Virus record (IMG/VR): IMGVR_UViG_3300025128_000335
Location: 1 to 23,876 of that record
Source of the DNA: a virus
Direction: 5' to 3' (one strand)
DNA: 23,876 nucleotides
Part shown: positions 13,472-21,254 of the stretch, one piece after another
Numbering within the stretch: the stretch's first letter is position 1
Layout of the letters: each line of letters opens with the position of its first letter
The notes under the pieces: model-generated
What the model saw: only the letters and a program-made list of their open reading frames with translations
Database searches by the model: none
What the model was told of the DNA's origin: nothing
Made by a program: the position numbers and the translations under genes

Positions 13472-14977
13472 TTACCCGTATTCCTTTTGCGTTTCTATGG
13501 CCTGGTTTAGCTGCATATCGGGGTGGTAGCGCCGCGTCATTTGCTGGGTAACATGGCCTAAAACTGCCTGGGCTGCTTCAATGCCGCCTTGTTCCACTAG
13601 CGTAGTATTACGGCGATAGCGCAGCAGATGCGGGAATATATCAGCGACGCCTACGCGTTTTGCTACGCGCTGCATCGACTGGCGGTAGGTATCAACGCTA
13701 TAACGTTCGTTGGTGATTTTAGCGAGGCCGCCGGGCAACTGCTGATAAATGCTATCCCACGTTGGGGCCAGGTTTGCCGGTGGCTCATAGCCCACTAACT
13801 TAAACGTGGTGCTAAACTTCTTCTTCGTGCCAGTCTTTTCAATCACATAACCACGGTTCCTCAGATACTGTAACGCCCCGCCGTAGTGTTTCTTGATTCG
13901 CATAAGCTCATTACATTTAACCTCGCCCTTTTCAAGTCGGCGAAGAATCTTAGCGGCGACGTGTTTAGGATCTACCGTAAGACTCTTACGGTTATGGGCC
14001 TTAAGGCTCGTTAGCCATCGGTAGTAACTGGCGTTAGCCCTCGGGTTAAAAATATATTCATGGCCCCTATCGGGGCGCTGCTGCTCATAATCAAGTAGCG
14101 CCTGCACCGCTGTAGCCCCAAACACGATATTTAGCCGCCCTATTTTTTCTTCCGTTTTATGGCTGGGGGCGTAGATCCAGCAGCCGTCAGCCTCGTACCT
14201 GCTCTGGTCGATATCATTCCATTTAAGATCTACCAGGTTACCACTACGCATACCGGTGTTAAGCTGTACCGCTAGCATCGTTCGCAGCGTTGGCGGGGCA
14301 GCCTCTATGATTTGTTGCACCGATTCGGTGCTAGGCGTTGCGCGTTGCTGTTTGGTTTTTACGCCATCTACCTTACGCAGGCCTTTTACCATCCTTAGGT
14401 AGACGTAAACGTCCTTATGGCAAAGGTGATGGTTAGCACCCCAGCGGAAGATATCACGGATCAACCAAACCTTTTTAGCTATCGTCGCCTGGGCGTTACC
14501 GACTCGGTTCATAAGTCGATTCTGTATATCTTCTAGATCAGTTGTTTTAAATGTATCCGCAACCCGGTGGCCGTAAGGCGCTAGCTGTTGGCGTACCGTT
14601 TCGATAGCTTGCAGCGCGCGGGTATCACGTAGAGATGTAGCGCGGTCGGTGCTGTCCGGGTTACGCCTTCCCTTTTCGTGTTCTAGATAGGCGTCGACTA
14701 GTTCGTCGATTGTTACGCTCTGGTAACTATCAAACCTATCCTCGACGGCTGGCCGTCGCTCTACCGGCTGGCCGGATTCTTTCGCGTACCATTTTTCAAA
14801 GTCGTGCCACATTTCAGCAGACTTATACTCTCCGGCGAAGTACTTCGTTTTGCGTACCGGTTTGCCGTTAGCATTGCGTACTATTTCGCCGTCGTCGTTG
14901 GTAACCGTCCAGCGGACATAACCTTTACCTTTACCTTTATGTAATTGTGGCGCGGTGGGTAGTGGTGTACCGGTCAT
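13472..14977 (-). CDS. int: Tyrosine-family integrase with inserted winged-helix-like segment
   Basis: This 501-residue protein likely integrates and excises the phage at attP/attB. Numbering from the chosen ATG, an N-terminal arm-binding region is followed by a core-binding region at about 85-195 (VTIDELVDAYLEHEKG). The catalytic domain has R244 (NTGMRSGNL), a lysine in HKTEEK (K274), H450 and R453 (FPHLLRYRRNT), H475 (VLGHV) and the nucleophile Y484 (TRRYHPDM). Residues ~336-398 between the first arginine and the H-x-x-R box look like an inserted winged helix (ILRRLEKGEVKCNELMRIKK; YLRNRGYVIEKTG). ATG 14977 has AGGGAG about 8 nt upstream; a longer start at 15019 would run through the GGTGTACC arm sites. 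It lies next to attP. Confidence 0.9.
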   Translation of the reverse strand: MTGTPLPTAPQLHKGKGKGYVRWTVTNDDGEIVRNANGKPVRKTKYFAGEYKSAEMWHDFEKWYAKESGQPVERRPAVEDRFDSYQSVTIDELVDAYLEHEKGRRNPDSTDRATSLRDTRALQAIETVRQQLAPYGHRVADTFKTTDLEDIQNRLMNRVGNAQATIAKKVWLIRDIFRWGANHHLCHKDVYVYLRMVKGLRKVDGVKTKQQRATPSTESVQQIIEAAPPTLRTMLAVQLNTGMRSGNLVDLKWNDIDQSRYEADGCWIYAPSHKTEEKIGRLNIVFGATAVQALLDYEQQRPDRGHEYIFNPRANASYYRWLTSLKAHNRKSLTVDPKHVAAKILRRLEKGEVKCNELMRIKKHYGGALQYLRNRGYVIEKTGTKKKFSTTFKLVGYEPPANLAPTWDSIYQQLPGGLAKITNERYSVDTYRQSMQRVAKRVGVADIFPHLLRYRRNTTLVEQGGIEAAQAVLGHVTQQMTRRYHPDMQLNQAIETQKEYG

Positions 14978-15020
14978 AATAATCTCCCTGAGTTGGCTGC
15001 TGTGGTGTACCGGGTACACC
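14964..15020. repeat. Left-arm GGTGTACC repeats near integrase start
   Basis: GGTGTACC occurs at 14964-14971 and 15004-15011, with its reverse complement at 15013-15020 one base later. The same octamer forms the right cluster at 15265-15292. Arm-type integrase or excisionase sites flanking the attP core are the best fit; a repressor operator is possible. Confidence 0.65.
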
Positions 15021-20005: not shown

Positions 20006-20175
20006 TGATTGTAATACCTATAAGCCCAGAACCGCGTCATAAGCCTGAATTACTGGCAATGACAATAATAATACTAATGCCCATACCGCGGGTGCTGTTC
20101 CTCATGGCGTTTGTTTTTGTCGCATTCTCGGCCAACGTATTTAGGAGCATTTTCAGACGTGATAACAGTAGGTGA
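20005..20175 (+). CDS. Tiny membrane protein
   Basis: This 56-residue frame (start MIVIPISPEPRHKPEL) runs from the ATG of TGATG to TGA 20173-20175. It has a hydrophobic stretch LLAMTIIILMPIPRVLFLM, extended by AFVFVAFSANVF, and ends basic (RSIFRRDNSR). One or two membrane passes are possible. It overlaps the methyltransferase start by 17 nt. Its coupled start and clean hydrophobic profile support it; function unknown. Confidence 0.55.
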   Translation: MIVIPISPEPRHKPELLAMTIIILMPIPRVLFLMAFVFVAFSANVFRSIFRRDNSR

Positions 20176-20923
20176 ATTATTTGCCGGAATCGGTGGTATA
20201 GGTCTGGGTCTGGAGATGACCGGCGGGTTCGAGGTGAAATGGCAAGTTGAACGCGATCCATACGCTACACGGGTGTTAGAAAAGAATTGGCCTGATGTAA
20301 AACGGTGGGATGACGTTACGACATTTCCACCGACAGAATCTGACGTATGGAACGTTGACTTAATCGCCGGTGGGTTTCCGTGCCAGGACATATCTTTTGC
20401 TGGCAAGGGTGCAGGATTAAAAGGGGAAAGAAGTGGACTGTTTTACGAAGTTGTGCGAATTGCAGAGAGACTTAGACCGAGATACTTGCTACTGGAAAAC
20501 GTCGCAGCGCTCGTTGTTCGGGGAATGGGCCACGTTCTCGGAGCGCTGGCCCAGGTCGGGTATGACTGTGAATGGCACTGCATACCGGCTGCCGCCCTTG
20601 GTGCCCCTCACAGACGTGACAGAGTATTCATTTTGGCCTACGCCGCGGGCGAGCGAATACAAGGACTGCGGGCCACTGGGCAGCAAGTCATATCGCCACA
20701 TGTTAGCCCGTCGTTATCTCTGCGCGAAAGCTCAGGAAGCAGACAACATTTCTGGAAAGTTGAACCCGAATTGGGTCGAGTGGTTAATGGGGTTTCCATC
20801 GGGGTGGACAGAGCTAAACGAATCAAAGCATTAGGTAACGCGGTAGTTCCGCAAGTGGCGCAATTTATAGGCGAGCAAATTTTAAGGGTACATAATGGGC
20901 CGGATGTCACGAACCAAAGGTAA
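20159..20923 (+). CDS. DNA (cytosine-5) methyltransferase
   Basis: This 254-residue protein transfers a methyl group from S-adenosylmethionine to cytosine C5 in DNA. Motif I is ELFAGIGGIGLGLE (6-19), motif IV has the catalytic Cys75 in GGFPCQDIS (71-79), motif VI is LLENVAA (111-117), motif VIII is RRDRVFILA (152-160), and the final helix motif is RIKALGNAVVP (221-231). It is short because the target-recognition part between VIII and IX is only about 60 residues. GTG 20159 puts motif I near the N-terminus, with AGGAG 11 nt upstream; an in-frame TTG at 20111 is inside the preceding gene. No cognate restriction enzyme was seen, so self-protection from host restriction is likely. A second frame overlaps its second half. 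Confidence 0.9.
   Translation: MITVGELFAGIGGIGLGLEMTGGFEVKWQVERDPYATRVLEKNWPDVKRWDDVTTFPPTESDVWNVDLIAGGFPCQDISFAGKGAGLKGERSGLFYEVVRIAERLRPRYLLLENVAALVVRGMGHVLGALAQVGYDCEWHCIPAAALGAPHRRDRVFILAYAAGERIQGLRATGQQVISPHVSPSLSLRESSGSRQHFWKVEPELGRVVNGVSIGVDRAKRIKALGNAVVPQVAQFIGEQILRVHNGPDVTNQR
20433..20834 (+). CDS. Protein encoded inside the methyltransferase gene (overlapping frame)
   Basis: This 133-residue frame lies wholly inside the methyltransferase, shifted +1. It starts at GTG 20433 with AAGGGGA about 6 nt upstream. It has features of a real phage protein: CYWKTSQRSLFGEWATFSER and WPRSGMTVNGTAYRLPPLVP, then FWPTPRASEYKD, and near the end LNPNWVEWLMGFPSGWTEL. I associate this order (S-L-F-G, W-P-R-S-G-M, W-P-T-P, W-V-E-W-L-M-G-F-P) with small phage proteins annotated beside or as methyltransferase parts. 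Its function is unknown; a protein partner of the methyltransferase is one inference. It could instead be a frozen shadow of a conserved gene. Confidence 0.6.
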   Translation: MDCFTKLCELQRDLDRDTCYWKTSQRSLFGEWATFSERWPRSGMTVNGTAYRLPPLVPLTDVTEYSFWPTPRASEYKDCGPLGSKSYRHMLARRYLCAKAQEADNISGKLNPNWVEWLMGFPSGWTELNESKH

Positions 20924-21254
20924 AGTAGGCGAACGGGAACTAAGCCGGGTACTTCGTAAACTGTACCCCCAACTGAAGGACCAAATTCGGCGCGGCCAGC
21001 AGTACAACGGGGCCGACGGTAGCGCGGACGTTATCGGGATCCCTGGTTTACATATCGAATGTAAACGCACCGAAAAACTAAACCTCTACAAAGCGTTAGA
21101 TCAGGCGGAGGACGACTGCCCTAAAGACCAAATACCGGTAGTTGCGCATCGTCGCAATCTCCAGCCCTGGGTGTTAATATTACCGCTGGACAAATTAACA
21201 GAATTCGTACGGGTGCTGGCACAACAGGAAACCGGCGAATATGACAACGTTTAA
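20895..21254 (+). CDS. PD-(D/E)XK nuclease, Holliday-junction-resolvase-like
   Basis: This 119-residue protein has the nuclease layout: KGKVGERELSRVL (E13), then RRGQQYNGADGSADVIGIPG (D45), then LHIECKRTEKL (E55, K57). These residues fit the D-E-x-K active site of the archaeal-type Hjc or phage resolvase group. It would cut branched DNA made in replication and recombination, in keeping with the Sak4-like gene upstream. It overlaps the methyltransferase end by 29 nt and has AAGGG before the ATG. Confidence 0.82.
   Translation: MGRMSRTKGKVGERELSRVLRKLYPQLKDQIRRGQQYNGADGSADVIGIPGLHIECKRTEKLNLYKALDQAEDDCPKDQIPVVAHRRNLQPWVLILPLDKLTEFVRVLAQQETGEYDNV

Follow-up and report, generated by a model that had tools for sequence, protein, structure and literature searches.

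Can one stretch of phage DNA be held to two proteins at once over some hundreds of nucleotides, and if so, what is the second protein for? The question is raised by a locus in a viral genome fragment that was analysed as a single stretch of 23,876 nucleotides, referred to here as the window. The fragment is from a temperate phage, with genes for a major head protein, a tape measure protein and an integrase; the temperate lifestyle follows from the large integrase-like gene (phrog_1, 1.1e-29) at 13475-15019 on the minus strand. On the plus strand, a C5-cytosine methyltransferase gene, alpha, holds within it a second open reading frame, beta (Table 1). A sequence-only reading had called this gene dual-coding, and the nested frame, of 133 codons with a GTG start and a TAG stop, does carry the motifs that were listed for it (SLFGEW, WPRSGMT, FWPTPRA and WVEWLMGFPSGW). 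A RusA-like resolvase gene (phrog_244; 20895-21254) begins within the end of alpha and extends the chain of overlapping genes.

Table 1. Features of the methyltransferase locus in the window, with the basis of each assignment.
Feature	Positions	Strand	Basis
alpha, probable large subunit of a C5-cytosine methyltransferase (motifs I-VIII and X, without IX)	20159-20923	+	probable GTG start
beta, probable small subunit, +1 frame, nested in alpha	20433-20834	+	open reading frame; phrog_1008; selection tests
purine-rich AAAGGGGAAAGAA, possible ribosome-binding site of beta	20420-20432	+	4-base Shine-Dalgarno match only
alpha motif VIII, RRDRV	20612-20626	+	alignment
beta WPTP module (WPTPRASEYKDCGPLGSKSYRHM...), candidate target-recognition module, function inferred	20634-20759	+	alignment; module clustering and shuffling
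beta motif IX, LNPNWVEWLMGFPSGW	20760-20807	+	alignment; betas with IX and X; phrog_116; fused model on HhaI
alpha EPELGRVVNGV, in DNA shared with beta motif IX of the other frame	20762-20794	+	Glu/Arg kept in 183 relatives
alpha motif X, ALGNAVVP	20828-20851	+	alignment

Alpha is readily recognized as a methyltransferase, but not as a complete one. The open reading frame around it spans 20111-20923, and the GTG at 20159, behind the Shine-Dalgarno sequence AGGAG (20143-20147), is its most likely start. The protein matches PF00145 (3.7e-48, profile positions 2-168), phrog_363 (8.9e-73), phrog_116 (6.4e-62) and HhaI (1.8e-39), the last in an alignment that reaches motifs I-VIII only. GxG, PCQ, EN, RxR and GN are invariant among the aligned relatives, and motifs I, IV (PCQ), VI (ENV), VIII (QxRxR-like) and X follow in order, by which alpha qualifies as a C5-cytosine DNA methyltransferase (PF00145). 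Between VIII and X within alpha, however, motif IX is absent, and alpha does not qualify as a single-chain member of PF00145. The earlier assignment of motifs VI to IX to the main frame thus needs correction in its naming: RIKALGNAVVP is motif X, and motif IX lies in the other frame.

To judge whether the +1 frame is open by accident, the number of expected stops was obtained by holding the alpha protein fixed and redrawing synonymous codons from the gene's own usage. For the window alone, the expectation for the +1 frame over the beta stretch is 7.4 stops, and the probability of finding it open is 0.0005. Among 54 non-redundant relatives the +1 frame is open in 54 of 54, with 0 stops against 257.9 expected, whereas the third frame of the same relatives, which served as a control, has 520 stops against 521.1 expected. 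The fourteen of them that were found with alpha alone as the query have 0 stops where 75.4 are expected. When the beta protein is held fixed instead, the alpha frame over the TRD/IX region of beta also has 0 stops (183.7 expected). Both frames were present in every locus found with the beta query and, separately, in each of the 18 found with the alpha query. Given that the loci and pairs are mutually related, we take these counts as effect sizes rather than exact probabilities. The open +1 frame in alpha is not due to chance.

Selection on the two proteins can be followed along the locus by comparing differences per codon at alpha positions 1/2/3 in 148 pairs of related genes. These are.094/.051/.220 upstream of beta,.086/.047/.117 over motifs VI-VIII,.186/.051/.042 in the TRD/IX segment between VIII and X, and.078/.023/.300 after the beta stop, so that variability is alpha-like upstream, then shared, then beta-like, and alpha-like again past the end of beta. 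The first codon position of alpha is the third of beta, and the VIII-X segment thus evolves as the beta protein; across it alpha is mostly an open linker whose variation is a slave of that of beta.

Not everything in alpha is given up there, as seen at sites that are silent in beta. In 183 non-redundant loci, compared at the motif WVEWLMGFPxGW, the fourfold-degenerate base of the WVEW Val codon is C in 123, A in 42, G in 5 and T in 1, against a background of 41% G, and alpha has Arg at this site (CGN or AGR, with C or A as the beta base) in 175 of the 183. The GWT Thr codon behaves likewise (C75 A88 G8 T0, alpha Arg again), and at the LNP Leu codon the base is G in 113 of 122, with the alpha Glu retained. 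The GFP Pro codon, a control column at which alpha varies, is near background. That a site silent in beta should alternate between two families of Arg codons is as predicted by protein-level selection on alpha. Both frames are under protein-level selection, and the proposal of dual coding with both frames conserved is borne out, by the absence of +1 stops in diverse homologues and by alpha residues held at beta-synonymous sites. Frequent +1 stops among homologues, or substitutions explained by the main frame alone, would have refuted it; the stop counts for the 54 relatives and the codon-position pattern contain neither.

What, then, is the beta protein? It belongs with phrog_1008 (5.5e-24), and a tblastn search found relatives in 242 phage records, all below 60% identity. 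Beta had no significant match in Pfam, its profile found nothing among PDB chains by sequence, and phmmer searches with the IX-X pieces of betas gave nothing usable; the IX-X part had only a sub-threshold Pfam match to PF00145 (0.04), at the right end of the profile. In the alignment, the C-terminal end of beta reads LNPxWVEWLMGFPxGWT, which is motif IX. In five loci (L006, L007, L010, L133 and L204) alpha ends soon after motif VIII and the beta frame holds IX and then X, the latter as RLKAIGNGQVP or LQQLGNAVVP. Betas of this kind include those of Gordonia phage GordTnk2, Arthrobacter phage Eesa, Streptomyces phage Samy, the archaeal contig L133 and L204, and in L133 and L204 the alpha profile itself detects motif X in the beta frame. 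Positions 208-379 of phrog_116 match the window alpha, and positions 440-500 match the IX-X part of beta from L010 (Samy; 3.5e-13) and L204 (3.7e-6), so that the two parts follow in canonical order within a single profile.

Structure prediction is consistent with this placement, within limits. Folded alone, beta has low confidence (pLDDT 62), and its model has no structure match in the PDB. A fused model, in which alpha I-VIII and beta TRD/IX are joined through one frame shift, has a pLDDT of 84.5 and a pTM of 0.81 and superposes on M.HhaI residues 12-295 (Z 17.8, rmsd 2.8, 184 aligned). In this predicted superposition, with what we take to be the HhaI motif positions, motif IX of beta would end just before HhaI motif X. 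The model was joined by hand, which biases it toward a methyltransferase-like placement. We conclude that beta is not a foreign protein but probably contributes a recognition module and motif IX to the methyltransferase of which alpha is the rest, its role in recognition being inferred. The sequence-only reading saw the second protein but missed this identity, which is not that of a separate phage family.

How beta is made bears on the choice between explanations. The claim that the +1 frame has its own ribosome site stands only in part: the purine-rich sequence does precede the GTG, but this internal start is weakly marked and its exact position is uncertain. Related phages keep a GAARGAAGTGG-like sequence in the region of the beta start. 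In 23 relatives, among them L121, L126, L128, L133, L148 and L151, alpha and beta start in different frames with their start codons exactly 4 nt apart (RTGAATGAGYTGGC), behind one ribosome site, which may feed two proteins. Strong Shine-Dalgarno sequences (at least 6 matching bases) accompany 6.9% of beta-frame start codons and 1.3% of third-frame ones; the mere presence of such a sequence at an internal beta start says little, since many start codons are available. In the absence of expression data, we infer that beta probably has its own translation start.

The beta segment could also be reached by ribosomal frameshifting from alpha, in which case the active enzyme would be a single chain with alpha(I-VIII) fused to beta. 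In favour of this are the +1 frame of beta and the fused model, which resembles a near-complete C5 methyltransferase. Yet the N-terminal extension of beta is conserved upstream of the would-be junction, and neither the twin starts of the 23 relatives nor the richness of beta-frame starts in strong Shine-Dalgarno sequences fits a product that begins with alpha. There was no systematic search for slippery sites; we rank frameshifting below independent initiation and consider the fusion an unlikely form of the enzyme. We find it harder still to believe that alpha is a complete enzyme and beta an unrelated phage protein, e.g., a regulator or an anti-restriction factor, as might be supposed from the lack of a significant Pfam or PDB match for beta alone and from the many records that annotate only alpha. 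Such an alpha would be without motif IX, and its VIII-X segment would vary as a slave of a stranger; moreover, in the betas of other phages IX is followed by X, and the two match the part of phrog_116 that comes after I-VIII, and every beta locus among 262 has an alpha on the same strand.

Hardly any room is left for the view that the +1 frame is an untranslated by-product of methyltransferase codon usage and a conserved protein. G+C-rich genes do easily yield long +1 open frames, and a few actinophage relatives have individual probabilities of being open of 0.1-0.2. A by-product, however, would not be free of stops where 258 are expected, nor would its third codon position replace that of alpha as the most variable one in the TRD/IX segment, nor would it stay conserved beyond the alpha stop, as the beta frame does in the five loci named above.

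We therefore hold it very likely that a single C5-cytosine DNA methyltransferase is encoded here in two subunits that share their DNA. In this enzyme, alpha would be the catalytic domain, with SAM binding, the PCQ nucleophile, ENV and motif VIII, and would also bring the motif X helix; beta, as recognition module plus motif IX, would correspond to the small domain with which ordinary C5 methyltransferases bind DNA. Alpha and beta may associate into an active heterodimer, for which there are no binding data, and the enzyme may methylate phage (or host) DNA, for which there are no activity data; protection from host restriction is a possible benefit, also inferred. As to origin, a once-continuous enzyme may have undergone two compensating frame changes that moved VIII-IX into +1, or an AquI-like split may have come first, with motif X passing from the frame of beta to that of alpha. 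Both options are inferred, and both layouts (the AquI-like split and X in alpha) exist among relatives.

The arrangement is not confined to the window. In the 262 loci, drawn from IMG/VR, GTDB genomes and phage records, beta is nested in +1 in 254, partly overlapping in +1 in 6 and apparently broken by indels in 2. The overlap of about 400 nt, correctly estimated for the window, is larger in relatives, in which the shared open frame has a median of 711 nt and a maximum of 1252 nt. The layout is present in phages, bacteria and archaea, the archaeal cases being L269, on a plasmid of Methanomethylovorans hollandica, and L133. In Mycobacterium phage Jinglebell (L268), where two antisense hypothetical genes are annotated at the locus, and in L211 and L246, the two frames are swapped or merged by indels. 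In E. coli PCP07014 (L265:1200-1961), alpha has an internal stop and is annotated as a pseudogene, and the beta frame is mostly still open.

By a simple pattern count, betas carry 1-6 WPTP modules, with one in the window, and the same module type occurs at differing array positions (e.g., WPTPTVHGNNNRKG... at positions 1, 2 and 3 in arrays of 2 to 5). It is possible, although we lean slightly toward doubt, that the +1 frame is a cassette array of 1-6 interchangeable WPTP modules, each with its own DNA target, that recombine between phages while the alpha frame is kept open throughout. If so, a phage could change or stack methylation specificities by swapping DNA that codes in two frames.

In the records examined, only one frame of nested loci is annotated, usually alpha. 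Rctr197k has beta alone, and E. coli PT62 has alpha alone though beta is open across the whole gene. In the PT62 prophage, a second C5 methyltransferase lies beside the first (L264:542-1528) with a nested +1 beta of its own, of a divergent type ending in LNPAHSRWLMGLPRAW (3.4e-12); here too the annotation shows nothing but the alphas.

In prokaryotes, long stretches that code in two frames of one strand are generally considered rare, and annotation mostly fails to show them. A large and widespread family in which both proteins are under selection across hundreds of bases allows statistical tests of how overlapping genes evolve. Proteins that are now hypothetical or mislabelled (phrog_1008 and its kin) can be reassigned as probable DNA-recognition subunits of phage methyltransferases. 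Specificity prediction and enzyme cloning from alpha alone should fail, and studies of restriction escape need both frames.

No paper describing these methyltransferases as dual-coding was found in the literature, of which only open-licence texts were searched; nor did these mention the breadth of the family, the modular arrays, the twin starts or a measured dual constraint. Among protein families, alpha belongs with both phrog_363 and phrog_116 and beta with phrog_1008. These are kept as separate families, all labelled DNA methyltransferase, and the labels are silent on phrog_1008 being the other frame of the same gene.

M.EcoHK31I, whose target is YGGCCR, is reported, after work by Lee et al. 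in 1995, to have its small polypeptide encoded within the large gene in another frame; the nested small-subunit gene of the window resembles it in this. The enzyme consists of two polypeptides. The large one has motifs I-VIII and X, the small one has IX alone, and the predicted recognition domain was placed in the large polypeptide (PMC3404938). Alpha and beta of the window share this motif division, a likeness of layout only, without sequence comparison. They differ in that the variable, modular VIII-IX segment is read in beta; its variation as the beta protein points to beta for the recognition domain, in the absence of DNA-binding data. The window locus also differs in that it belongs to a phage and no restriction enzyme was seen close to it. 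A search of E. coli for an M.EcoHK31I-like gene found prophage relatives, none identifiable as EcoHK31I itself.

In M.AquI, the alpha subunit holds motifs I-VIII and the beta subunit part of the variable region, IX and X (PMC3404938). The window locus is likewise split between VIII and IX, and the five loci with motif X in beta share the AquI motif division; the window does not, having motif X in alpha and beta wholly nested in the other frame. The multispecific C5 methyltransferases of Bacillus phages (SPR, phi3T, H2) have tandem recognition modules between VIII and IX (PMC8936443). The WPTP modules of long betas, 1-6 in number, are similar to these, but the Bacillus phage modules belong to single-chain enzymes; the window beta has one module, and WPTP specificity is unproven. 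The layout thus has a precedent in M.EcoHK31I, and its breadth, modular arrays, twin starts and overlaps of up to ~1250 nt go beyond that precedent.
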